Assembly (NCBI RefSeq): GCF_900115495.1
Contig: NZ_FOWR01000028.1
Coordinates: 1-64,000, forward strand
Direction of reading: 5' to 3'
DNA: 64,000 nt
Source of the DNA: Enterovibrio norvegicus DSM 15893
Lineage (GTDB): Bacteria > Pseudomonadota > Gammaproteobacteria > Enterobacterales > Vibrionaceae
Part shown: in pieces, positions 50,773 through 64,000 of the stretch
Layout: each line of letters starts with the position of its first letter
Numbering within the stretch: the stretch's first letter is position 1
Made by a program: the position numbers and the translations under genes
Notes under the pieces: generated by a model
The model's input: the letters and a program-made list of their open reading frames with translations, nothing else
The model's database searches: none
What the model was told of the DNA's origin: nothing

Positions 50773-50802
50773 TTTATCTATGAGAGCTTTATCTATGAGA
50801 GC
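50773..50802. repeat. 15-bp tandem duplication at the end of the oxidase gene
   Basis: TTTATCTATGAGAGC occurs twice in tandem (50773-50787, 50788-50802). The second copy contains the oxidase stop codon, so the duplication extends the sequence past the stop without changing the protein. Confidence 0.9.
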
Positions 50803-52412
50803 TTAATGATTTTTGCTTCTGATGGAACGCCATCGGCATCAATGACAAAGACCATATAGTAACCCTGTGTCATTTTTTGAGGTGTCAGTTGCCCTGACCC
50901 AATCACCAAACGGTTGTTTTGGCGTTCTTTGAAGTTCACTTCACGGAAGATTTGCCCCATGTTCCAACTGTGTGTCGTTGAACCCAGTTTAACCATGGTG
51001 ATCCTTTCAATCTTCTTATTTCCCGAGTATTTGACGGAGATATTTTTGTCATACGATACGTTCGTCGTAATGCTTGTTATGGTTGGTCGTGTTGCCCAAT
51101 TACCGTTTACATCAAATAAATAGTCAGGGTAATACATTTCAGCATTCAGTTGATAAATAGGGCCTGGAGGACCGCCACCCGCAACCAAAACGGCACCGCT
51201 AGGTAACAACACAGCTGAGGAATGATAGAGGCGCGCTTTCTGGGAAGCTTCTGTGGTTCGCCACTTATCATTTTCTGGGTTGTAAACCTCGGCAGTGAAG
51301 TGAGCAGAATCGAGGTCTTGTCGGACAGATGAACCACCAGAAACGAGTACTTCGCCATTTGCTAACAGGGTGGCATCAGACCAGATTCGCTCAGACGGAA
51401 TATTAGCGAGTCGTTTGGAACTGAAATTATTAATATTGATGGAATAAACTTTTTTACCTTCTTTAAACGCAAGTACTTTGCCGCTTGCATAACTCACGGT
51501 GGGGTAAAAGAATTTAAAATCGCCCGTACCAGTGTTTATTTTGTGATTAATTCCACCTTGTCCATTAGCGGTTGTTTTATAGGCGTCTAATTCATAAACG
51601 CCATTGTCATTACCTTTGATAAAAACGACATTTCCTTTGTTGTTCACAAAGCTTCTTGGATAATACCAACCTTTTACGGAATACACATCCGGCGAGTCAG
51701 CGCCATGAAGTTGAGACCAGGTGCCTGACGTTTGGCTGTATAGTTCCGGTAATGTGGTAGGGGTCTCTTTGTCGATACGTCCACCGTGGACGAGTATATC
51801 GCCATTGGGCATTGTCGTTAGCGTTGGGTACCAGCGCTGTTGATTCATCTCTCCCGTAAGTGACATGCTGTTATCATTGGGGTTGAAGACATTTGCGCTT
51901 TTTATGCCCGCACCATTGATGCCGTTTGGTCGCTGGTCACCACCAGAAATAAGCAGGCTACCATTGCCCAAAAGTTGTTGTGCTGAGCAAAATACATTGG
52001 TGTCAGTGGTGATATCTAAGGTGTTATGAGATGCGTCAGTGAAGCCCTGTGAAGGTGTCCATACATCATACGCCAAGCCGAGACCACGACCCGACTCGTC
52101 TGTGCCGTAGGTGATCACATTGCCATTTGGCAATAACGCCATATGAATGGCATATAACGGCCAATTTCCCGAAGTGCTCCACATCCCTTTTTGGTGAGCA
52201 GTGGTATTGGCTGCCTCATCAAACAAGCGAACATTTGCTTGTGATCCAAAAGACATTCTTGCGGCAGGAAAATAACTGTCATCTTCGAGTTCGTTGCCTG
52301 CATGGGCGTAATTTAGGTAAAGCATGCCCAGCAGCAATGATTTAACAATGCCTTTTTTGCTCAATCGGCGCTGGGAGTGAGAAGTTTTTTGATTCATTTT
52401 TGAAACATCCAT
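50793..52412 (-). CDS. Secreted galactose-oxidase / glyoxal-oxidase-like copper protein
   Basis: About 540 residues from the ATG at 52412 (52397 is an alternative). A basic signal peptide (RLSKKGIVKSLLLGMLYLNYAHA) is followed by a Kelch-type propeller with repeated G-G-turn blades. The DUF1929 early-set domain closes it (PTITSITTNVSYDKNISVKYSG). Candidate copper/cofactor residues match the fungal enzymes: Cys in TNVFCSAQQLL, Tyr in NQQRWYPTL, Tyr-His in ARLYHSSAVLL and His in TTHSWNMGQ. It would oxidise primary alcohols or aldehydes to give peroxide. Single gene. Confidence 0.85.
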   Translation of the reverse strand: MDVSKMNQKTSHSQRRLSKKGIVKSLLLGMLYLNYAHAGNELEDDSYFPAARMSFGSQANVRLFDEAANTTAHQKGMWSTSGNWPLYAIHMALLPNGNVITYGTDESGRGLGLAYDVWTPSQGFTDASHNTLDITTDTNVFCSAQQLLGNGSLLISGGDQRPNGINGAGIKSANVFNPNDNSMSLTGEMNQQRWYPTLTTMPNGDILVHGGRIDKETPTTLPELYSQTSGTWSQLHGADSPDVYSVKGWYYPRSFVNNKGNVVFIKGNDNGVYELDAYKTTANGQGGINHKINTGTGDFKFFYPTVSYASGKVLAFKEGKKVYSININNFSSKRLANIPSERIWSDATLLANGEVLVSGGSSVRQDLDSAHFTAEVYNPENDKWRTTEASQKARLYHSSAVLLPSGAVLVAGGGPPGPIYQLNAEMYYPDYLFDVNGNWATRPTITSITTNVSYDKNISVKYSGNKKIERITMVKLGSTTHSWNMGQIFREVNFKERQNNRLVIGSGQLTPQKMTQGYYMVFVIDADGVPSEAKIIKLS

Positions 52413-52905
52413 GTTTGATTGAACACATCTTCTGTTAAGTCGTTCATCATTGTTGCTAGTGCTCTTGGAATGTGTCAATTAGTGAGGTATGGATTGTTTC
52501 TTTAACTAAATGATATTTTCATTAATGAGGCAGTTCATATTGTTTTATATGAAAAATATTGGCAGTTTTGGTCGATAAAATAGGCAGGTGTAAAGTCAGC
52601 TTAGATATAAACACAAAAAATAAGTAAGTGGCCGCTGTTTTCTGGTTAATAGGTTTTGAAATGGTACGTCTTTAACTTGAACGCTAACCATAAAGCGTAT
52701 TAGGAGTAGAAAAAGAAAAAAGCGAGAGGTGTTTGGGCCTTGGGTATATAGTTTTTTATATTGATTGTGGCAGTGTTTAGTGAACATTCAGGGTGGAAAC
52801 GGTGGCTGATCTGCCGTTATTTGATGTGGATTTTAGCGCGTTTTAGGGTACTGACCCTTCAAACTACCTGCAGAAAAATACGTTTTGATGTAACCAATAA
52901 GGTGG
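52413..52905. other. AT-rich gene-free region upstream of the oxidase and the histidine kinase
   Basis: About 490 bases. The one clear structure is a 14-bp palindrome AGGGTACTGACCCT at 52845-52858, 60 bases before the kinase start. Its TGACCC half resembles the activator sites at 56.3-56.5 kb, but the spacing differs. Confidence 0.4.
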
Positions 52906-52911
52906 ATGCCA

Positions 52912-54867
52912 GTGGACGGCGGAGTGTTTCAGTCTGAGCAAAATGGGGCGTTACAAACTAAGCCTCATTCTCGATTGCGTAGGAAAAATTTTGGTTGGAA
53001 AGGCATTGAGTTACGACTTGTTATGGCGTTATCGATGCTATCAATGACAACACTTTTTCTCTTTGTTGTTTCTTCCTTTACATTTACAGATCTTAACCAG
53101 CGTCTGGAGGAATTAAAGGAAAGTGAGATTCCTGCATTGGAACAAGCCGCAAGACTCAATGACATGGTGCGCGTGATTATCACCACTTCTTCGCAGATTG
53201 GTGATGCAGAATCCAACATTGAACGAAAGCAGGCAATGGAAAAGATCGAACAAGCGATTTTGGTGATGGATGGCATTGTCGTGGAGTTTCCCGAATATCA
53301 TGCCTATTTCAAAGATCTCATTGCACAAGTCAATAATAGCCTGAGCTTGTTGTTTCAAAGTGAAGTCGAATCTGAACACCTCAACAAAGAGTTGGGGGAT
53401 TTGCTGGAAGGTTTCTATCCATTGCTTCAACAAGCAAGTCAATCGCTTGATCAACTGCCAGAGGATAGCAAGAACAAGATTGACTATGCCCAACTTAAAG
53501 CGCTCTTGTATTACCAGTTAGGCTTGGTCGAAAAACTGTATAACGACGCAAGTTTTAACGATCTCGATTACACGGGGTCTCGATTAGAGCAAGTGGGCGA
53601 ATCATGGTGGACGCTTTGGGTTGTTGGCGGGTTAGGTGATGAGTTTCCAGAATTAAATCGACAACTCTCTGTGATATACAACTTAGCATCGCGTTCTAGC
53701 AGCCTTTATGCGCTGAAAAACAAAGCGTTAGATCACCATTATCAAGAGCAATATTTCTTACAAAATAGCCGCGAACACCTCAATCAATTAACCGTGCAAA
53801 TTGAGACTAACACGAGCAAGGTCAACCGAAATATTGATCTTTCCATCGTTCAAGCTCAGCAGTCTTTGTTATTTAACCAAAAGTGGTCACTCTTTCTTTC
53901 AATATTCAGTGTATTGGCGGCGGCTGCCATTTCTTGGTTTTATGTCCGCAAAAACATACTAGAGCGTTTATTGCAGCTAAAGGACAATATGTTCGCGATT
54001 TCAACCGGGCACTTAGACACAGAAGTCGCGATTCGTGGTGAAGATGAAGTAACTCAAATGGCGAAATACTTAAAGGTCTTCCAATTGACGGCCAAAGTGG
54101 TGAAAAAGACCAATCAGAAACTAGAGGCGGAAGTCGAAGAAAGAACGTTGGCGGAAGCCAAACTGCGGGTGACACAAGATGAGCTTGTACAGGCTGGAAA
54201 GCTTGCTGCATTAGGTCAGTTGAGTGTGGGGATTACCCACGAAATCAATCAACCGTTGACGGCTGTAAATAGTCATATTCGTAGCGCTCAACGTTGGTTA
54301 GAGCAAGACCGGCCCGACAAGGTGCAGAATAACCTAGAGAAAATACAGGGGCTACTTGAAAAAGTGGCCGCGATAACAAGGCATCTTAAGGCGTTTTCGC
54401 GCAAAAGTGATGGAAAGGTAGATAACGTACTCTTGGACGAGGTTATTCGAGATGCCATTGGACTTTTCGAGACGAGGCAAACCAGTGTATTGATTGAATA
54501 TGAGAAAACGGAAGAACAGTGGGTGCGGGCAAATCGTATTCGCCTTGAGCAGGTATTGGTCAATTTGATCAGTAATGCTTTAGATGCTGTCGAAAATCAG
54601 CCAAACTCGCGGGTCGCTGTTGCGGTGAAGGGTACATCAAAAGGTGTTCAGTTCTCGGTAAAAGATAATGGTCTTGGTATTCCTTCAGGCGATCTTTCTT
54701 ATCTGTTTGACCCTTTTTATACCCGAAAAGAGGTGGGCAAGGGCTTGGGCTTAGGCTTGTCGATTGCCTACAACATCATTCAAGGCTTTGGCGGCACCAT
54801 TGCTGTTGAGTCTGTAGAGCATGAAGGAACAGAATTCATTGTTACGTTACAAAAAGGCAGCCATTGA
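52912..54867 (+). CDS. Sensor histidine kinase, DctB-like
   Basis: About 651 residues. Two membrane helices (about residues 40-60 and 325-350) enclose a ~260-residue periplasmic, mainly helical sensor domain. HAMP follows, then the H-box GITHEINQPLTAV (His about 443) and the ATPase domain (NLISNALDAVE, DNGLGIP, GKGLGLGLSI). Start: AAGGTGG lies six bases before a GTG at 52912; an ATG at 52906 is an alternative. It overlaps the response regulator gene. Paired with a sigma-54 activator and located beside a phosphonate-type ABC importer, it probably senses that importer's substrate. Confidence 0.9.
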   Translation: MDGGVFQSEQNGALQTKPHSRLRRKNFGWKGIELRLVMALSMLSMTTLFLFVVSSFTFTDLNQRLEELKESEIPALEQAARLNDMVRVIITTSSQIGDAESNIERKQAMEKIEQAILVMDGIVVEFPEYHAYFKDLIAQVNNSLSLLFQSEVESEHLNKELGDLLEGFYPLLQQASQSLDQLPEDSKNKIDYAQLKALLYYQLGLVEKLYNDASFNDLDYTGSRLEQVGESWWTLWVVGGLGDEFPELNRQLSVIYNLASRSSSLYALKNKALDHHYQEQYFLQNSREHLNQLTVQIETNTSKVNRNIDLSIVQAQQSLLFNQKWSLFLSIFSVLAAAAISWFYVRKNILERLLQLKDNMFAISTGHLDTEVAIRGEDEVTQMAKYLKVFQLTAKVVKKTNQKLEAEVEERTLAEAKLRVTQDELVQAGKLAALGQLSVGITHEINQPLTAVNSHIRSAQRWLEQDRPDKVQNNLEKIQGLLEKVAAITRHLKAFSRKSDGKVDNVLLDEVIRDAIGLFETRQTSVLIEYEKTEEQWVRANRIRLEQVLVNLISNALDAVENQPNSRVAVAVKGTSKGVQFSVKDNGLGIPSGDLSYLFDPFYTRKEVGKGLGLGLSIAYNIIQGFGGTIAVESVEHEGTEFIVTLQKGSH

Positions 54868-56222
54868 TGAAACACGATAAACACGTTGTACTGATCGACG
54901 ACGAATCAGATGTTGTTGAAGCTGTCAGTGAAATGCTTGAGCTTGAGGGGTTTTCAGTCAGTGGGTTTACTGACCCGAATGCAGGCCTTCGCTCGTTAGA
55001 TCATCATTGCCAATCCGTTGTTCTCTGTGATGTAAAAATGCCCGATGTGGATGGCCTTACGTTGGTGACAGCAATACAACACCGTGCACCCCAAGTTCCC
55101 GTGTTGCTGATGAGTGGTCATGGCGATATTCCGATGGCGATAGAAGCCATCAAACTGGGTGCGTTTGATTTTCTGGAGAAACCCCTCAACGCGGATGAGC
55201 TGATCGAAAAGCTCAATCTTGCTGTCACGCATTGTCAGCAATCGCAGCCCTCAGAAACAGACAATGCGTCTTCTGCAAGCGCATTACCGATTGAATCCGT
55301 CATCATCGGGCAATCTAAAAGCATGGATATAGTTCGTCAACAGGTCATGGCGCTAGCACACACGGGTGTGGACACTATCATCAATGGCGAAACGGGTACT
55401 GGCAAGGAAGTGATAGCGCGAGCGCTTCATGACTTTAGTTGCCGCAAAGAAAAACCCTTTGTTGCAATTAACTGTGGCGGAATGACAGAGAGCATCATTG
55501 AGAGCGAGCTGTTTGGCCACGAAGCAGGATCGTTCACCAGTGCCAATAAGAAGCGAATTGGCAAAATCGAGCAGGCCAGTGGCGGAACGTTATTTCTCGA
55601 TGAGATAGAAAGTATGCCTATCGCGGTTCAAATTAAACTGCTTCGGGTTATCCAAGAACGCGCGATTGAACGTGTAGGGGGAAATACACTGATCCCTGTC
55701 GACATCGTTGTCATTGCAGCCAGTAAAGCCGATTTAGCCAGCCTGGGTGAATCTGGCGAGTTTCGTTCAGATTTGTTCTATCGATTAAATATCGCCAGCT
55801 TGCATCTGCCCCCGTTACGACAGCGTAAAGAGGATATTTTGGTGCTGTTTCGGCATTTCGTGGTACAAGCCAGCCTGAAATACAAAACGCGTCCTTCTAC
55901 GATTTATCCAGAGCAAAGCCAACAATTAAGCCGCCATGACTGGCCCGGAAATGTCCGAGAGCTGCGCAATGTGGCTGACCGTTTTGTGTTAGGCATCGTG
56001 GGTGATGGGTTTGACCTTACATCGCCGACCGGTGAAGGGGTGGGTGACGATTTTGCGTTTGAAAAACAGATGGAACAGTATGAGAAGAACGTGTTGACAG
56101 AAGCCCTGATTGAATCCTCAGGAAACATTAATGAGGTGTCGAATAAACTCAATCTTCCGCGTAAGACCCTTTATCGAAAAATGAAAAAGCATCAACTGGA
56201 TAAAGACAGCTTTAAGGATTGA
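54867..56222 (+). CDS. Sigma-54-dependent response regulator, DctD/NtrC-like
   Basis: 451 residues. Receiver domain with phospho-Asp55 in CDVKMPDVDG, AAA+ domain with GETGTGKEV (about 174) and GGTLFLDEIES, and a Fis-type C-terminal HTH (GNINEVSNKLNLPRKTLYRKM). The sigma-54-contacting loop is GSFTSA instead of the canonical GAFTGA. The ATG shares its A with the kinase stop (TGATG). It is expected to bind the three dyads downstream and activate the -24/-12 promoter of the ABC operon. Confidence 0.92.
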   Translation: MKHDKHVVLIDDESDVVEAVSEMLELEGFSVSGFTDPNAGLRSLDHHCQSVVLCDVKMPDVDGLTLVTAIQHRAPQVPVLLMSGHGDIPMAIEAIKLGAFDFLEKPLNADELIEKLNLAVTHCQQSQPSETDNASSASALPIESVIIGQSKSMDIVRQQVMALAHTGVDTIINGETGTGKEVIARALHDFSCRKEKPFVAINCGGMTESIIESELFGHEAGSFTSANKKRIGKIEQASGGTLFLDEIESMPIAVQIKLLRVIQERAIERVGGNTLIPVDIVVIAASKADLASLGESGEFRSDLFYRLNIASLHLPPLRQRKEDILVLFRHFVVQASLKYKTRPSTIYPEQSQQLSRHDWPGNVRELRNVADRFVLGIVGDGFDLTSPTGEGVGDDFAFEKQMEQYEKNVLTEALIESSGNINEVSNKLNLPRKTLYRKMKKHQLDKDSFKD

Positions 56223-56259
56223 TAAGGCCGGCGAGCTTGCGTTATATGCATCCAAATAA

Positions 56260-56275
56260 GAGACAAGAATGACCC
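56260..56275. promoter_or_regulatory. Candidate activator site (UAS) 1
   Basis: GAGACAAGAATGACCC: left half GAGACA, N4, right half TGACCC. About 300 bases upstream of the -24/-12 promoter, consistent with looping activation. Confidence 0.6.
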
Positions 56276-56452
56276 AAAAACGAATAGGCGTGTTGTGCGG
56301 GACTTGCCACTAATGACTTAACATTTTGAGATGACGAAGATTTATACAAGACTAGGCTAATAAGATTGACATGTGGTGCGTGCAGCTGTGAGCTAGCGCT
56401 CAAATCGCCTTCTTTCAAGATTCAAGCATGGCCTCATATGTCTTTCTGAAGC

Positions 56453-56468
56453 GGGACACAAATGACCC
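56453..56468. promoter_or_regulatory. Candidate activator site (UAS) 2
   Basis: GGGACACAAATGACCC: halves GGGACA and TGACCC (inverse of GGGTCA) around a 4-base spacer, the best of the three copies. It lies 34 bases from site 3, centre to centre. Confidence 0.7.
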
Positions 56469-56486
56469 AAACGTTACTTTTTTTAG

Positions 56487-56502
56487 TGGACATCGATGAC
56501 CC
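56487..56502. promoter_or_regulatory. Candidate activator site (UAS) 3
   Basis: TGGACATCGATGACCC, same half-sites and spacing; about 75 bases upstream of the sigma-54 promoter, the usual NtrC-type distance. Confidence 0.7.
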
Positions 56503-56562
56503 AAAATCAAGGGGTGAAAACCAATTTAATTTTAACTTATTGATAATTAAGGGGTAAAAATC

Positions 56563-56578
56563 TGGCATGAAGGGTGCA
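56563..56578 (+). promoter_or_regulatory. Sigma-54 (-24/-12) promoter of the phn-type operon
   Basis: TGGCATGAAGGGTGCA matches TGGCACG-N4-TTGCW with the invariant GG and GC at the exact spacing; only one base differs in each box. Transcription would start near 56589, 29 bases before the first gene's start codon. Confidence 0.8.
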
Positions 56579-56617
56579 ATAGAGTAAGCGACTTTTAACA
56601 AAACGTAGAAATAGGAT

Positions 56618-57664
56618 ATGAATATGAAAACCAGCGTTAAAGGATTGTTAATCGCTAGCTCATTGCTTCTTCCTACAGTTGCCTCAGCAAGCGAGTGTGT
56701 AAACCGCGGCGTGCTAGATAATAGATACTGTGATGAAAACCAAGATTTGGTGGCAGATTCCCCAAAGAACGCCGATGAATGGATCGACCCAAGCACCCTC
56801 GTTTTTACTTACACACCCGTTGAAGATCCCGCTTTATATAAAGATGCATTCGCAGACTTCCAAGCACACCTAAGTAAAATTACGGGTAAACGTGTTATTT
56901 ACTACACCGTTCACTCAAACTCCGCACAAGTAGAAGCCATGCGTTCTGGTCGACTTCATGTCGCTGGCTTTTCGACGGGTCCAACAGGTTATGCCGTGAA
57001 CCTTGCAGGCTATGTGCCTATTGCAGTTAAAGGCGATGAAAAAGGTTTTCAAGGTTATAACTTGATCACCATTGTTCGCAAAGATAGCGGCATTGATTCC
57101 ATGACGGATTTAAAAGGTAAAAAGGTTGCGCACACCTCCGCGTCCTCCAATTCAGGTAACCTAGCACCCCGTGCACTGTTCCCTGAAAAAGGTCTAGTGC
57201 CAGATCAAGATTACAAGGTGCTTTACTCTGGTAAACATGACCAATCTATTTTGGGTGTATATAACGGAGACTATGATGCGGCGCCCGTTGCCTCTGATGT
57301 CTATGACCGCATGGTTGCCGCAGGCCGCGTCGACGACTCTGAGTTGAAGGTGATTTACCGCAGTCCTCGCTTCCCTACGTCTGCGTTTGGTTATGCCTAT
57401 AACCTCAAGCCAGAACTGGTCAAGAAAATCGAGGAGGCATTTTTCAGTTACCGCTTTACCCCAGAAATGAGTGCTGCATTTAAAGGTGCCGATCGTTTCT
57501 CTCCTATCACTTATAAAGAAGAATGGGGCGTGATTCGAGATATCGCTCATGCGACTGGCACGGCATACACCAAAACGGGCCTGAAAAAGCTCGCGGAAAA
57601 AGATGCTGCAAAACGCGCCAAGAAAAAGGCCGCTGAATTAGCGAAGCAAGCGAAAATTCAGTAG
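56618..57664 (+). CDS. phnD: PhnD-type periplasmic phosphonate/phosphate ABC binding protein
   Basis: 348 residues. Signal peptide (MNMKTSVKGLLIASSLLLPTVASA) followed by a type II binding protein: FTYTPVEDPALYKDAF, VAGFSTGPTGYAVN, DLKGKKVAHTSASSNSGNLAPRALF and GDYDAAPVASDVYDRM. This is the PhnD/PtxB class that binds phosphonates or phosphite. An unusual lysine-rich helical tail (KKLAEKDAAKRAKKKAAEL) ends the protein. First gene behind the sigma-54 promoter. The ligand is not known. Confidence 0.88.
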   Translation: MNMKTSVKGLLIASSLLLPTVASASECVNRGVLDNRYCDENQDLVADSPKNADEWIDPSTLVFTYTPVEDPALYKDAFADFQAHLSKITGKRVIYYTVHSNSAQVEAMRSGRLHVAGFSTGPTGYAVNLAGYVPIAVKGDEKGFQGYNLITIVRKDSGIDSMTDLKGKKVAHTSASSNSGNLAPRALFPEKGLVPDQDYKVLYSGKHDQSILGVYNGDYDAAPVASDVYDRMVAAGRVDDSELKVIYRSPRFPTSAFGYAYNLKPELVKKIEEAFFSYRFTPEMSAAFKGADRFSPITYKEEWGVIRDIAHATGTAYTKTGLKKLAEKDAAKRAKKKAAELAKQAKIQ

Positions 57665-57717
57665 TTCTCGCCTCGTTTAGCCCTCCCCGCTTATTCATGT
57701 AATAAGCCTATTTAAAT

Positions 57718-57746
57718 ATCTATGCCCTTCTGGGTAGGGCATAGAT
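57718..57746 (+). repeat. Intercistronic hairpin between phnD and phnC
   Basis: ATCTATGCCC (57718-57727) pairs with GGGCATAGAT (57737-57746), 10 bp. No T-run follows. It probably stabilises the binding-protein message above that of the other subunits. Confidence 0.65.
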
Positions 57747-57776
57747 CACTTTAACGTTTGTACAAGGAAACACAGA

Positions 57777-58547
57777 ATGGCCGTAGCAAGCTATGACGGA
57801 ATAAAAATCAATAACCTTTATCATGAATATGTGGCGGGAAAGCCCATCCTAAAAGGGATTAATATTGATATCGACCAACCGGGAATTATTGCCATTATTG
57901 GTCCGTCGGGCACAGGGAAAAGTACGCTTTTACGGTGTATTAATCGCCTTAACGATCCAACCCGAGGCGAAATTCTGTTTGATGGTGTCGACCTGACGCA
58001 ACTCAAAGGTTACGCACTTCGTATGCAGCGCCGTCACATTGGTATGGTATTCCAAGAATACAATTTAGTTGAGCGTCTCACTGTCATTGAGAATGTTTTA
58101 AGTGGGCGTTTGGGATACATGAGTGCTTGGAACGCATGGCGCAGACGTTACTCATCCGAAGATCTCGCCAAAGCGTTTGAACTACTTGAATTTGTGGGTT
58201 TAGAAGACTTTGCTAACCAACGTGCAGATAGCCTTTCTGGCGGTCAACGGCAACGTGTCGGTATTGCGCGCGCGGTGATGCAAAACCCTTACATTTTACT
58301 GGCGGACGAGCCAACGTCTTCACTCGATCCAAAAACAGCCTCGGAAATTATGGGTCTGATGGAAACGCTCGCTGAACAGAAAAACATTCCTGTGCTGGTG
58401 AATATTCATGACGTTAATCTCGCCAAAAAATTTGCCAAGCGAGTCATCGGAATGTGTAACGGAAAGGTACATTATGACGGCACACCAGAGGGGATCACGG
58501 AAGATGATTTGAAAGTGATTTATGGGGGTGAGTCATGGCTGGATTAA
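57777..58547 (+). CDS. phnC: PhnC-type ABC transporter ATPase
   Basis: 256 residues. Walker [11 protein letters not shown]-loop [13 protein letters not shown], signature [13 protein letters not shown], Walker [15 protein letters not shown] and switch His NIHDV. PhnC energises uptake by the paired PhnE permeases. It overlaps the first permease by 13 bases. Confidence 0.94.
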
Positions 58548-59347
58548 GCCAAGGTTCGGCGTCTTCGTCTTCAACCTTACCGGTTCAAAACCCGTTTAAC
58601 GTGTCATGGACCCATCGTGCTTTACTCGCTGCGGTGGCCGTTTACCTTTTTTATAGTGTGTCGACGCTCGGCGTCACCTATGACCGACTGGTTATTGGTT
58701 TGGGTGAGAGTGAACGACTCTTATCGAGAATGTTTCCCCCTGATTTTTCAAGAACCAGTCTGCTATTAAGTGGATTGGCTGAAAGCTTACAAATCGCCAT
58801 TATTTCGAGCTTCTTTGGGATTGTGATTTCGCTGGTTTTGGGCTTGTTGGCGGCGAGGAACATGATGCCATCGATGATATCGATGCCCGTTCGAGGGTTC
58901 ATCGCATTATGTCGATCTTTTCATCCCGTTATTATCGCGATTTTATTTGTGAAAGCCGTGGGCTTTGGTGCGCTGGCAGGGATTTTGACCTTGGTTTTCG
59001 CCTCAATCGGCTTCATCGCTAAGCTTTTTGCAGAAGCCATAGAAGAGATTTCGTTTAAACCAGTTGAAGCAATACGCGCGACAGGGGCAAGCTTCATGTC
59101 TGTGATCCTGTATGCGGTGATGCCGCAAGTGTTTACCCGTTTTATCGGTTTCGCCAGCTACCAGTTGGACTCTAATTTACGTAACTCAACCATGGTCGGT
59201 ATTGTCGGCGCGGGCGGGTTAGGCGGGACCTTGTTTTCTGCTTTCCAACGTTTTGACTACGACTTCGTCGCAGCGATTTTGCTCACCATTATTGCACTTA
59301 TTCTCGTCGGTGAGTTTCTGTCTAATATTGTCAGGAGAGTATTCTAA
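58535..59347 (+). CDS. phnE: PhnE-type ABC permease, first copy
   Basis: 270 residues with about six membrane helices and the EAA loop [22 protein letters not shown], the ATPase contact. [17 protein letters not shown] is the PhnE signature. The stop overlaps the next permease start (TAATG). The two permeases are homologous and probably form a heterodimer. Confidence 0.93.
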
Positions 59348-60150
59348 TGACGACGGCTTCTATTGATAAAGAATGGCATCGTTTTACATTCAATGAACGT
59401 ATTGCTCGCTTCGCGGTGTATCTTTGCCTTGTGTCTGCCATTGTATGGTCTTGGCAAACCGTCGAAGTCATTCCTGAGTTCCTGTACGACGCACCTGCAC
59501 AGTTCGCTGACATGTTCCAACGCATGGTGCCTATGGACTACGGGTTTTACCCTGAATCTATTCACGCTGCGCTGATTGAAACATTGAATATTGCTACGCT
59601 GGGAACCTTGTTTACTTTGGTATTTGCAATCCCATTAGCATTGCTCAACGCACCTAATATCACACCAAGCAAAACCTTAAATTGGATAGCACAGTTCTTT
59701 CTGGTCTCGTCTCGATCGGTAAACTCGCTTGTATGGGCATTACTGTTCATCGCCTTGTTTGGTCCAGGTGTGCTTGCGGGAGTGATGGCGATTGCGGTGA
59801 GAAGTATTGGGTTTGTCGGTAAGTTGTTGGCTGAAGCGATTGCAGAGGTCAACATGGGGACGATCGAAGCCCTACGGGCAACAGGGGCGTCGTGGATGAG
59901 TATTTTGCTTAAAGGTTATTGGCCGCAGGTTATGCCAGCTTTTTACTCTATTGTTCTGTTCCGTTGGGATATCAATGTTCGCGAATCAGCGGTGCTAGGG
60001 TTGGTTGGCGCAGGGGGGATCGGTGTGGTGCTAAACGATGCTCAAAACCTGTTCGAATGGCAAAAAGTGTCCATGGTTCTTGTGAGCATTTTTGCCGTGG
60101 TTGTCATCGCTGAGGCGCTTGTTATTCATATTCGAAACAAGCTTATCTAA
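59347..60150 (+). CDS. phnE: PhnE-type ABC permease, second copy
   Basis: 267 residues with the same helical layout. EAA loop AEAIAEVNMGTIEALRATGAS and RESAVLGLVGAGGIG. Last gene of the operon; a strong terminator follows. No C-P lyase or phosphonatase gene is present in the window, so the transporter may serve a single separate pathway. Confidence 0.93.
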   Translation: MTTASIDKEWHRFTFNERIARFAVYLCLVSAIVWSWQTVEVIPEFLYDAPAQFADMFQRMVPMDYGFYPESIHAALIETLNIATLGTLFTLVFAIPLALLNAPNITPSKTLNWIAQFFLVSSRSVNSLVWALLFIALFGPGVLAGVMAIAVRSIGFVGKLLAEAIAEVNMGTIEALRATGASWMSILLKGYWPQVMPAFYSIVLFRWDINVRESAVLGLVGAGGIGVVLNDAQNLFEWQKVSMVLVSIFAVVVIAEALVIHIRNKLI

Positions 60151-60242: not shown

Positions 60243-61628
60243 CTAACCCAAATGAATCACCGAATCACAGCGTTTCTCGATAAGATTCTTATCATGACTG
60301 ACCAACAATACAGCGCAGTCTTGCTCTTTGGCGAGGGCGATTAAAATCTCTGTCACTTCCTTGGCAATGATCGGGTCGAGTCGAGATGTGGGTTCATCGG
60401 CGAACAAGAACACAGGGTCGAGCAGTAGCGCACGAAGAATCGAAAAACGTTGTAGCTCGCCGCCTGATACTGAGGTACTTCGTCTTTCAAGCAGTTCAGG
60501 GGCAAGTTTGAGCTTTTCCATCAAAGGCGCAATTTTCTGCCTATTGATGTTATGAAGCACAATCAGATCGTCCAGTAACGTCCCAAGCGTAACGCTCGAT
60601 GTGACGGCGGATGGCGGGTCTTGAAACAGTTTGAGCCATTGATAAGGTGTGATGTTTTCACCCAGCTTATTGATGCTGCCTTCTAAGGGAGGAAGCAGCC
60701 CAAGCAGCGTGTCACCCAATGTACTTTTCCCGCAGCCGCTGTCGCCAACCACGCCCATGACTTCGCCTGCGTGAAGCGTGAAAGAAATGTCGTTCGCGAG
60801 GGATTGGTGTTGACGACCAATGCTTAAACCGCTGACGTTCAGCACGGGTTTGGTGAGTGCTTGTGGATACTCACTTTTACTCCAATGACGAGGGTCTGCG
60901 GCGATCAGTGCTTGTGTGTAGGGATGCTGCGGTTGTTCGAGCACTTGAGTCGCTGTGCCTTGCTCAACCACGGTGCCTTCTTTCATCACTATGATGTCGC
61001 CACCAATTTGGCGAGCGACATCGATATCGTGCGTGATGGTCAGCAAGCCGCCGCCTTGTGCACTTTTTATCAAAAGCTGAATGATGTCATCCCTGCGGCT
61101 AACATCGAGCCCTTTGGTGGGTTCGTCCGCCAGAATCAGGGTTGCGCCGCCCGCTGTTGCGGCTGCTACCGCTAAACGTTGCGCCATACCGCCTGAAAGC
61201 TGGCCGGGTCGCTTCAACGCACTGGATTTTAGCCCCAATTCATCCAAATCATTGATTGCACTATTAAACGCGGATTCAGGGCTTTGGTCGTGCACGCATT
61301 CATACACTTCGGCCACTTGTTGATAGCTTTGCATCAGCGGATCTAACGCACGCCAAGGTTCTTGAGGCAACATGATCATCTGTTTACCCCAAAGCGTTTT
61401 TAGAGCGGGAATATCATGGGATTTTCCCATGATTTCGACGCGACCGTGTTGCTGCAAAGTGGAAGGTAGCAAGCCGATGATCGCTTGCGCTAACAGGCTT
61501 TTTCCTGAGCCGGTTTGACCCAAAATGGTTAAGGGTTTGTCCTGAAAGAGCGATAACGAGAGTGGCTCAAGAAGCGATACATCCTCCGCGTTGATCGAGA
61601 GATCAGTCAATTGAATTAATGGGGTCAT
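60243..61628 (-). CDS. Double ABC ATPase of a peptide/nickel-type importer (DppD-DppF fusion)
   Basis: 461 residues with two complete nucleotide-binding domains. Domain 1 has GQTGSGKS and LSGGMAQRLAVAAA. Domain 2 has GDSGCGKS and VSGGELQRFSILRALLLDP, with LFADEPTSRLDP. Each domain is only ~230 residues, shorter than separate Opp ATPases (~330) because the oligopeptide C-terminal extension is absent. It starts within the end of the upstream permease gene (26-base overlap). It energises the DppB/DppC-like permeases. Confidence 0.92.
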   Translation of the reverse strand: MTPLIQLTDLSINAEDVSLLEPLSLSLFQDKPLTILGQTGSGKSLLAQAIIGLLPSTLQQHGRVEIMGKSHDIPALKTLWGKQMIMLPQEPWRALDPLMQSYQQVAEVYECVHDQSPESAFNSAINDLDELGLKSSALKRPGQLSGGMAQRLAVAAATAGGATLILADEPTKGLDVSRRDDIIQLLIKSAQGGGLLTITHDIDVARQIGGDIIVMKEGTVVEQGTATQVLEQPQHPYTQALIAADPRHWSKSEYPQALTKPVLNVSGLSIGRQHQSLANDISFTLHAGEVMGVVGDSGCGKSTLGDTLLGLLPPLEGSINKLGENITPYQWLKLFQDPPSAVTSSVTLGTLLDDLIVLHNINRQKIAPLMEKLKLAPELLERRSTSVSGGELQRFSILRALLLDPVFLFADEPTSRLDPIIAKEVTEILIALAKEQDCAVLLVSHDKNLIEKRCDSVIHLG

Positions 61629-62412
61629 CGCCTGTTCCTGCTAAAAGATGAAAACCTAACACCAGCAATGCGACCACAACCAAAGGTTGCGCCAACACCC
61701 ACGGTGCTTCGATATAGAACGGGAAAAGCTCGACACTCATTAACCCCAGTTCGGCGAGCGGTGGCTGAATGCCAACAGCGACGAAGCCGAGGGATGCCAT
61801 CATGAGAATGGCGTTTGCTCCCCCAAAAGCAGCCATGGTTAATACCGACGGCAAAATGGCTGGCCAAATATGACGTTTGAATTGATACCACTTTCCAAAC
61901 CCCATCATGGCGGAGAGTTGTCTTTCTGGGCTGTTGATTTTGGTACGAGTAATGACGCGGGTGACGCGATAATACTCAACCCACTGAACCAATGAAATCG
62001 CCAAATAAAGCACAAGGAACGACCCCGGTGCGATGGCGGCAAGCAGCAGCACCATGACCAATCCAGGCAAGGCCAACAGGATGTTCACCAATACATCTAA
62101 GGCTTGTTCAAAGCGACCTCCTGCCCATGCTGAGCACACCCCCAAGGCAACCCCCAACACGGATGATGTGATCACGCAGAGCAAACTTAGCGAGAAAGAC
62201 AGTGCAATCGCACTTGCAAGGCGTGTTGCCATATCACGTCCGAAGTGATCGGTTCCTAGCCAGTGCGCACTGTCTGGAGGAAGTAAAGTCATGGCGAGAT
62301 CTTGTTGTTCAATGGTGTAAGGCGATAGCCAGCTGACAGACAATGCGAAGCCAAACAGCACAAACAAAAGGGACAATCCACTATACTGGCGAGCCTTAAG
62401 ATTCTTCATCAT
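61603..62412 (-). CDS. Peptide/nickel-type ABC permease (DppC/NikC-like)
   Basis: 269 residues from the ATG at 62410-62412, which overlaps the upstream permease stop. About six helices; GTDHFGRDMATRLASAI near the start is the DppC signature and the EAA-like loop lies in GFGKWYQFKRHIWPAILP. The substrate is unknown. Confidence 0.92.
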   Translation of the reverse strand: MMKNLKARQYSGLSLLFVLFGFALSVSWLSPYTIEQQDLAMTLLPPDSAHWLGTDHFGRDMATRLASAIALSFSLSLLCVITSSVLGVALGVCSAWAGGRFEQALDVLVNILLALPGLVMVLLLAAIAPGSFLVLYLAISLVQWVEYYRVTRVITRTKINSPERQLSAMMGFGKWYQFKRHIWPAILPSVLTMAAFGGANAILMMASLGFVAVGIQPPLAELGLMSVELFPFYIEAPWVLAQPLVVVALLVLGFHLLAGTGDDPINSID

Positions 62413-63344
62413 TACGCTTCTCTCCCTCTTGGATCGATCCAATAACACGCGACGTCGATAACGCTGTTCAGTAACACAAACAGCACCCCCATTGCGAGTG
62501 CGCAGCCTTGGATGACGGGAATGTCACGCGCAAAAATGGCGTGCGCTAAACCATGCCCAACGCCCGGCCATGAAAAGAGGGATTCGATCATCACGATGCC
62601 TTCAATCACGCTCACCAGTTGAATGCCGATAAACGCAATCACGGGCACAGCCATGTTTCTTACGCCATGGCGAAGAAAGGTTTGTAACTCAGACAATCCT
62701 TTGACACGGGAGAATTGATAGAACGGAGATCGCAGCACGTTGAGTGCGCTGGCATGCACAACACGGTTAGACACTGCGGCCAAGCTGATACCTAGCGTGA
62801 GGGCTGGCAGAACGATATGTTGCCAGGTACCAAATCCAGCGACGGGAAGCAGTTGCCATTCCATCGAAAAAACAAGGATCAATACCAAGCCCAACACAAA
62901 AACTGGCAGCGCTTTGGTGCTCGTTGAAAACCAAACGAGCGCGCTGTTAATCGCACCGCCTTTCTTTGCTGACCAAATCCCCAAGGGCACGGCAATCAGG
63001 GAAGACAGCAAAATCCCGAATACCGCCAGCAGTAGCGAATGGCCGAGCTGGTGGGCAACGGCTTCACTCACTGGCAAACCACTCACGAGTGAATTGCCAA
63101 GGTTAAATTGCATCAGATCCATCAACCAGCTTACATAACTGCTCACCCAGCCTTGGTCGAGGTTCAATTCTTCGCGCACCAAGTTAGCAGCGGCGGTATC
63201 CACGTTATCTTGCCCGTATCGGCTTGCCGCAATGCGGTAAGCCATATCACCGGGTAAGCTTCTCATCATGATAAACGTGAGGGTACCAACCCCCCACGCC
63301 ACGAGAACCAATTGGAAAAACCGCTTTTTAATCAGCGAAAGCAT
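62412..63344 (-). CDS. Peptide/nickel-type ABC permease (DppB/NikB-like)
   Basis: 310 residues. RFFQLVLVAWGVGTLTFIMMRSLPGD at the start, GLSELQTFLRHGVRNMAVPV as EAA loop and VIESLFSWPGVGHGLAHAI are DppB signatures. Starts two bases after the binding protein gene. Confidence 0.93.
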   Translation of the reverse strand: MLSLIKKRFFQLVLVAWGVGTLTFIMMRSLPGDMAYRIAASRYGQDNVDTAAANLVREELNLDQGWVSSYVSWLMDLMQFNLGNSLVSGLPVSEAVAHQLGHSLLLAVFGILLSSLIAVPLGIWSAKKGGAINSALVWFSTSTKALPVFVLGLVLILVFSMEWQLLPVAGFGTWQHIVLPALTLGISLAAVSNRVVHASALNVLRSPFYQFSRVKGLSELQTFLRHGVRNMAVPVIAFIGIQLVSVIEGIVMIESLFSWPGVGHGLAHAIFARDIPVIQGCALAMGVLFVLLNSVIDVACYWIDPRGREA

Positions 63345-63346
63345 GC

Positions 63347-64000
63347 TTATTTAAAATCCATTTGGTTGATGAAGTAGTTGCGCTCAAACGGGTCAAACGC
63401 GAAGCCTTGAACACGGCTGTTTACCGCGGTGTGCTGGCTGTAACTGGAGATAGGTAGCACGGGGTAATCTTCGTGGATGGCTTTCGCGACGTGTTGGCTC
63501 AATACTGTGCTTCGAGCTGTGTCGCGAGTCTGCATGAGCTCTGCAATGGCGGCATCCACCTCGGCGTTTTCCCAGTTCATGGTGCCCCAGTCGCCACCAC
63601 CGTTTGAGAAATCGGTGCTGATGATAGGAAGAGGGTCCGCAATGAAGCCAAAATTACGCGCAATCAGCGCCATTTCCAGTGAGCCGTCTGCGTGTCCTGC
63701 TGGGATCATGCTGGAGTTGGTGATATCGACAATCAAGTCCACACCAAGCTCTGCCCACTGCGCTTGAATCGCGGTAGCGACGGTGGCAAGTTCAGGGCGA
63801 TCGGCATAGGTGATTAAACGAATTTGGAAAGGCTTACCACCTCGAGTGAGTTTTCCGCTCTCGTTGGCTTCCCAACCCATTTCTGCCAGCAGTGCTTTGG
63901 CCTCAGCGTGGTTAAATTCGTCGTTTGGCAAGTCCGCGACATACCATTGAGACATCGAGCTTGGTAGCAACTGCGCGGTTTCAGAACCTTCAGCACTCAA
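63347..64000 (-). CDS. Peptide/nickel-type ABC substrate-binding protein, C-terminal part (runs off window)
   Basis: About 217 C-terminal residues of an SBP_bac_5 binding protein: AKALLAEMGWEANESGKLTRGGKPF, QAQWAELGVDLIVD, DYPVLPISSYSQHTAVNSRVQGF and a terminal FINQMDFK. The signal peptide and first lobe lie beyond position 64000. It heads the operon binding protein-permease-permease-ATPase. Whether it binds peptides, nickel chelates or another solute cannot be judged from this part. Confidence 0.9.
   Translation of the reverse strand: MSAEGSETAQLLPSSMSQWYVADLPNDEFNHAEAKALLAEMGWEANESGKLTRGGKPFQIRLITYADRPELATVATAIQAQWAELGVDLIVDITNSSMIPAGHADGSLEMALIARNFGFIADPLPIISTDFSNGGGDWGTMNWENAEVDAAIAELMQTRDTARSTVLSQHVAKAIHEDYPVLPISSYSQHTAVNSRVQGFAFDPFERNYFINQMDFK

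Follow-up and report, generated by a model that had tools for sequence, protein, structure and literature searches.

A putative sigma-54 two-component circuit for phosphate ester uptake in Enterovibrio norvegicus DSM 15893

The first 64,000 nucleotides of contig NZ_FOWR01000028.1 of Enterovibrio norvegicus DSM 15893 (the window hereafter) encode an ATP-binding cassette (ABC) importer, and the locus raises the question of what this importer carries and how its transcription is switched on. Six genes on the forward strand are involved, all with intact open reading frames. A sensor histidine kinase (52906-54867; predicted TorS-type helical periplasmic sensor, HAMP, HisKA and HATPase) and an NtrC/AtoC-class response regulator (54864-56222), whose frames overlap by a few bases, are followed by a periplasmic binding protein of the PhnT family (56618-57664), a PhnC-type ATPase (57777-58547) and two PhnE-type permeases (58535-59347 and 59347-60150). 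The regulator matches Pfam models for a receiver, a sigma-54 AAA+ and a Fis-type helix-turn-helix domain above their cut-offs, the ATPase lies above the cut-off of TIGR02315 and both permeases above that of TIGR01097, and the binding protein is assigned by structure match and pocket residues to a sister clade of GpxB, a glycerol-phosphate-binding protein. A first-pass annotation read the locus as substrate-induced uptake of a phosphonate or phosphite under a DctB/DctD-like pair. Our analysis favors inducible uptake of a small phosphate ester; the likeliest are glycerol-3-phosphate and glycerol-1-phosphate, singly or together, glycerol phosphate being released when membrane lipids are broken down. 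We put a probability of roughly 0.6 on the sigma-54 wiring and a glycerol-phosphate-type ligand both being correct.

Exact matches to GACA-N4-TGACCC number three in the window, as first reported, and all lie in the gap from the stop codon of the regulator (56222) to the start of the binding-protein gene (56618); 100 shuffles of the window gave a mean of 0.15, a maximum of 1 and never 3. They are dyad 1 (GAGACAAGAATGACCC, 56260-56275), dyad 2 (GGGACACAAATGACCC, 56453-56468) and dyad 3 (TGGACATCGATGACCC, 56487-56502), on the forward strand, with GACA cores starting at 56262, 56455 and 56489, respectively. Dyads 2 and 3 are the upstream and promoter-proximal operators of a sigma-54 -24/-12 promoter (TGGCATGAAGGGTGCA, 56563-56578, forward strand) with GG-N10-GC spacing and 9 of 11 consensus bases. 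Sigma-54 elements with two or fewer mismatches occur 41 times in the window against 48.6 expected; the element at 56563 is thus unremarkable alone and is convincing because of its position and conservation, not of window statistics. Between operator and promoter lies an IHF-like site (56533-56545, reverse strand), an exact match to what we take to be the IHF consensus. A scan of 56223-56617 that allowed up to 4 mismatches in the 14 positions of the presumed Pho box consensus gave no Pho box, in agreement with the first-pass annotation.

Conservation was assessed in 80 named loci, many of which end early at contig ends, together with loci from a family search (30 listed) and 20 longer stretches. 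A binding protein at least 80% identical is encoded at 93 loci (some genomes twice), and merging duplicate genome copies from two collections and the window copies (L001 and WIN) by identical 200-bp upstream sequence left 64 distinct 200-bp upstream regions, or 63 after removal of L066, whose contig starts inside the gene. All 63 have an exact dyad and a sigma-54 element, the counterpart of that at 56563, and 61 have two dyads (at most one mismatch) 30-45 bp apart. The distance to the -24/-12 element is 110 bp for the counterpart of dyad 2 in 59 regions and 76-77 bp for that of dyad 3 in 62; 76 and 110 bp occur together in 56, and the others are small variants. Alignment columns are 90-99% conserved in the operators (99% for dyad 2, 90-99% for dyad 3) and 92-96% in the promoter, as opposed to 57-75% in the spacers. 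The IHF-like site is exact in 7 of the 63 regions and has at most one mismatch in 52, against 1.5% and 24%, respectively, in base shuffles. These loci come from Vibrio, Photobacterium, Grimontia, Veronia, Moritella, Psychromonas and Alginatibacterium, and the search for the dyads beside orthologous operons that the first-pass annotation had proposed is strongly positive.

Of 296 genomes sampled from the family, 61 encode the regulator (E of 1e-150 or less), and the same 61 encode a binding protein of this clade (E of 1e-200 or less). A genome-wide search for a dyad plus a -24/-12 element gave matches in 72 of the 296, namely 59 of the 61 importer genomes and 13 of the 235 others, the latter with one match each; the only importer genomes missed were G046 and G055 (in Grimontia, the site nearest the promoter has G as its last base). 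Within the 59 importer genomes, 113 of 114 matches fall at this locus (coordinates read), and a reversed control pattern gave 1 match. Locus classes were compared over regions with at least 250 bp upstream: dyad and promoter were found in 0 of 31 distinct regions from clade members without an adjacent orthologous pair (mostly Desulfobacterota and betaproteobacteria; weak -24/-12 in 2, GGACA-N4-TGTCC-like site in 4), and neither element was found in 12 distinct regions from GpxB-like paralogues within the family, a number of them in regulator-bearing genomes. Because of this conservation, the co-occurrence and controls that lack the combination, sigma-54-dependent two-component control through the dyads, as first annotated, is well supported on comparative grounds, and the importer is very probably wired in this way. 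As to a wider regulon, the window genome has 4 other exact RGACAN4TGACCC sites, all without a -24/-12 element within 160 bp downstream.

Seven distant loci also have the kinase/regulator pair (Nitrincolaceae, Oceanospirillum, Budviciaceae and one metagenome-assembled genome labelled Hyphomicrobiales), and in all seven a sigma-54 element is accompanied by a match to GGACA-N4-TGTCC with no more than 2 mismatches, three of the sites being exact. From the distribution of operators over near and distant loci, the palindromic form is likely the older, TGACCC being the right half found among the vibrios. In the -12 element of vibrio-group promoters, TGC is not preceded by the T that is usual there, a lineage-linked feature. 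The sigma-54 contact loop, which we take to be GAFTGA in general, reads GSFTSA in the window regulator (about residue 222), and over 48 regulator loci it reads GSFTSA (37), GSFTGA (7), GAFTSA (2), GSFTNA (1) or GAFTGA (1), such that Phe-Thr is retained and the flanking residues vary. A possible connection of the GSFTSA loop with the nucleotide preceding TGC was considered and dropped, since that nucleotide follows lineage rather than loop. In a regulator tree built from rows of at least 48% identity and 400 residues, Grimontia, which shares the genus label of the window genome, falls into a well-supported group of 14 to which the window copy does not belong, which suggests that the two were acquired separately; the exact place of the window copy is unsupported. 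A plasmid search with the regulator gave, among the matches listed, mostly NtrC-class proteins under 60% identity. In Photobacterium profundum ATCC BAA-1252 (L057, about 1065-2959), the kinase frame is split in two and the importer frames are open.

The first-pass annotation assigned all three dyads to the importer promoter, and this holds for dyads 2 and 3; dyad 1 probably belonged to another gene, a neighbor since lost. In many relatives, regulator and importer are separated by an additional gene, about 1.2 kb long, whose product has a GDPD domain and, by eye, a signal-peptide-like start and is only distantly like Escherichia coli GlpQ. A GDPD gene of this kind is present in 58 of the 61 importer genomes, in 55 of them inside this locus (coordinates read), and in 43 of 43 distinct regions upstream of locus GDPD genes, one dyad (at most one mismatch) and a sigma-54 element are 66-79 bp apart. 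In most relatives, the regulator also seems to drive this diesterase from a second dyad and sigma-54 element. The gene is missing from the window copy, where dyad 1 occupies the position of the relatives' GDPD operator; because relatives with GDPD have a dyad there before its sigma-54 element, dyad 1 is probably the leftover operator of the lost gene. At 56374-56386 (forward strand), a possible decayed -24/-12 of the lost promoter (GG-N8-GC) resembles the intact GDPD promoter element of L127 with its spacing broken, a weak likeness judged by eye. L127 itself (genome G025) keeps the GDPD operator and promoter between regulator and importer but has none of the gene past its first codons, which looks like a recent deletion, and GDPD loss thus recurs.

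A second GDPD gene, 67% identical, lies on another contig of the window genome (G000:C21:83046-84182; L191/L145), with neither dyad nor sigma-54 element within 500 bp upstream. It adjoins a divergently transcribed gene that by eye resembles a GntR/UTRA regulator. Of 18 genomes that bear the window's genus label, 13 have a GDPD gene at 64-69% identity, with a dyad in none of the 6 checked, and four genomes with an 80-88% identical GDPD and no regulator match have a dyad in none and a weak -24/-12 element in one.

The best solved match of the binding protein is 9lf9/9lfb (E 2.7e-79), followed by PtxB (E 5e-25). The 9LF9 protein is GpxB, which binds glycerol-1-phosphate and glycerol-3-phosphate with a Kd near 1-2.5 micromolar, best among C3 phosphates (PMC12718374). 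About half of the residues are identical overall, and the N-terminal DLxAD stretch is similar. All 86 distinct proteins compared from the window's clade (at least 230 residues, free of stops) have the same residue as GpxB at 8 of its 9 ligand positions and Ser in place of T247. The window protein scores 270 bits to 9lf9 versus 506 for the GpxB-like paralogue of genome G278; since vibrios have this separate GpxB-like gene nearer 9lf9, the window protein belongs to a sister clade and its ligand is one that we infer. Given GpxB as the nearest solved relative and, in many relatives, a GDPD gene controlled by a promoter of the same kind, we regard a glycerol-phosphate-type ligand as probable and favor it over a phosphonate. 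Side by side in a betaproteobacterial metagenome-assembled genome (L111:5986-8021) are two binding-protein-like frames, by eye an apparent tandem duplicate.

Two observations count for rival ligands. A HAD-IIB phosphatase gene lies near the importer in 25 of the 80 named loci (two partial; e.g. L038:9594-10391, reverse strand, and L098:9348-10247, forward strand) from vibrios, Desulfobacterota and Burkholderiales, and phnJ, encoding carbon-phosphorus lyase, is found in 25 of the 61 importer genomes versus 38 of the 235 others (p 8e-5), a real but loose association. The HAD-IIB neighbor is possibly a second clue to the ligand and, being present in distant phyla, keeps other phosphate esters among the candidates: phosphoglycolate, phosphoglycerate or a similar ester could be imported under the same wiring and hydrolyzed by the cytoplasmic HAD-IIB enzyme. 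The best equivalog-type row for the HAD-IIB protein was phosphoglycolate phosphatase PRK01158 in 4 of 5 scanned and TIGR01487, with the same activity, in the fifth (all below cut-off), the kinase core is closest to PgtB of the phosphoglycerate system, and an Azospirillum relative adjoins gph. Such an ester is nonetheless unlikely in view of a pocket that shares 8 of 9 residues with that of GpxB, a GDPD gene under the same kind of promoter, and a window genome that gave no HAD match (a search that had no positive control). The phosphonate or phosphite ligand of the first-pass annotation fares worse and is very unlikely. It draws on the PhnD/PhnC/PhnE family names, on the above-cut-off ATPase and permeases, on PtxB as the second-best solved match and on the phnJ enrichment; against it, the binding protein reaches 133.3 bits where the PhnD equivalog TIGR03431 has a cut-off of 261.1, the GpxB match is far better than that to PtxB, and GDPD belongs to the locus in most relatives. 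Moreover, phnJ was not found in 36 of the 61 importer genomes, and where phnJ and importer share a contig they are at least about 45 kb apart (printed coordinates). The phnJ stretches of five genomes held no protein of this clade and only a 32% relative in one. The window genome's own phnJ lies on contig C32 beside a different PhnD-type transporter, and its being on another contig near another transporter makes a phosphonate unlikely. The phosphonate reading is accordingly not supported by either phnJ or the PhnD cut-off, and the PhnD (phosphonate) label suggests itself as one that would mislead for this clade.

The separate carbon-phosphorus lyase locus of the window genome, with its own PhnD-type transporter, spans G000:C32:34764-40378 (within L200). 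Desulfotignum phosphitoxidans has a phnDEEC transporter, possibly of this clade, 13 genes from carbon-phosphorus lyase (PMC4046663). A copy of the present clade beside phnJ was ruled out for two Desulfotignum genomes (G297 and G298), where phnJ is on another contig (phnJ contigs of 77,792 and 295,000 bases; clade contigs L090 and L091 of 90,428 and 44,286 bases), and a search of a third Desulfotignum genome (L104) gave no phnJ match. On a plasmid of Azospirillum ramasamyi (L176), a module comprises a binding protein, a TorS-domain kinase, an NtrC-class regulator, an ABC importer, and phosphoglycolate and histidine phosphatases, and is likely another organophosphate sensor.

How the ligand would be sensed turns on the kinase. 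The first-pass label of a DctB/DctD-like pair fits the regulator architecture and not the kinase sensor, which is all-helical by predicted fold, with TorS as its best structure match; unrelated helical matches (G-protein-coupled receptors, dynein) were set aside. A Pfam scan of kinase residues 29-348 gave no relevant row (sole match V-SNARE, E 5.6), and the TorS model TIGR02956 matched the kinase twice, scoring below its cut-off, with the better stretch starting at residue 248. For the kinase alignment, 36 of the 55 stop-free rows (window included) were aligned. The TorS structure in question was solved together with the binding protein TorT, and the fold points first to sensing mediated by a binding protein, to which we give even odds. 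Alternatively, as in the sensing model of the first-pass annotation but with another ligand, the helical periplasmic domain would sense the ester directly and the binding protein would only transport, a difference confined to the sensing step; this is possible at somewhat less than even odds, the TorS match and the description of AioS and PgtB as acting through the binding proteins AioX and PgtC (PMC5908839, PMC11077982) arguing the other way.

Under the preferred glycerol-phosphate reading, the binding protein would capture the ester and, once loaded, engage the TorS-like kinase sensor, or, less likely, the ester alone would engage it; the kinase would phosphorylate the NtrC-class regulator, as the domains imply. 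Bound at the dyads 76 and 110 bp upstream of the -24/-12 element, as comparative genomics indicates, and probably helped by an IHF bend, the regulator would then activate sigma-54 RNA polymerase at the importer operon, and in most relatives the GDPD enzyme driven by the same regulator could make the ester from lipid headgroups. Tentatively, the importer's PhnT-family binding protein may thus double as the sensor, docking in its glycerol-phosphate-loaded form on the TorS-type kinase with importer and diesterase as sigma-54 output. That the locus is instead decaying in the window genome, with inducibility lost, would agree with the missing GDPD gene, its apparently broken promoter and the lack of a HAD match, but the six frames are open and the importer promoter retains both dyads, the -24/-12 element and the exact IHF-like site, and this explanation is the most improbable of all.

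Around the locus, a galactose/glyoxal oxidase-like kelch protein is encoded 5' of the kinase gene (50793-52478, reverse strand), and convergent Opp/Nik-type ABC genes (double ATPase, two permeases, binding protein) lie past the importer (60243-64000, reverse strand), with the binding-protein gene running over the window end.

Known systems resemble the locus in parts. DctB-DctD shares the DctD-type regulator architecture, upstream dyads and sigma-54, and differs in its sensor, which we take to have a PDC fold in DctB and which is all-helical and TorS-like here. In TorT-TorS-TorR, the kinase TorS is of the hybrid type, and TorR is not known to depend on sigma-54. TorT is also structurally distinct from the PhnD/AioX family (PMC5908839). 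Closer is AioX-AioS-AioR, with a PhnD-superfamily binding protein, a kinase, an AAA+ regulator and an RpoN promoter, but AioX is a dedicated sensor outside any importer, the ligand is arsenite and the operators are other ones; AioX and its orthologues were stated in 2018 to be the only signaling members of the PhnT family (PMC5908839). Salmonella PgtCBA has a PgtB-like kinase core, a sigma-54-domain regulator and control of a phosphate-ester transporter (PMC11077982), whereas the locus here has an ABC importer (with GDPD in relatives) in place of PgtP and no PgtC-type gene beside the kinase, and its kinase and regulator fall far below the PgtB and PgtA cut-offs (217 bits versus 1000 and 303 bits versus 650, respectively). 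The importer of GpxB, whose type of glycerol-phosphate uptake was described only in 2025 (PMC12718374), likewise combines a PhnT-family binding protein with two permeases and an ATPase, and 8 of the 9 ligand residues reported for GpxB recur here. The window protein differs in its separate sister clade and in having Ser for T247, and the GpxB-like paralogues are without the dyad and sigma-54 element (0 of 12).

A literature search gave no such circuit by title or start of abstract among the matches listed (subscription journals are mostly outside it) and, for GpxB with glycerol-1-phosphate, only PMC12718374, the accessible main text of which has neither "two-component" nor "histidine kinase". 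Should the dual-role reading be true, this would be the first PhnT-family protein known in both transport and signaling and a self-amplifying circuit for scavenging lipid headgroups, possibly including archaeal glycerol-1-phosphate. For substrate-induced uptake in marine vibrios from a promoter that has no Pho box, the locus provides a ready test of inducers, an operator of defined sequence and a signature that can be followed in genomes (61 of the 296 sampled from the family), with lipid headgroups indicated as the source. Set beside the Dct, Tor, Aio, Pgt and GpxB systems, it is a new combination of known parts.

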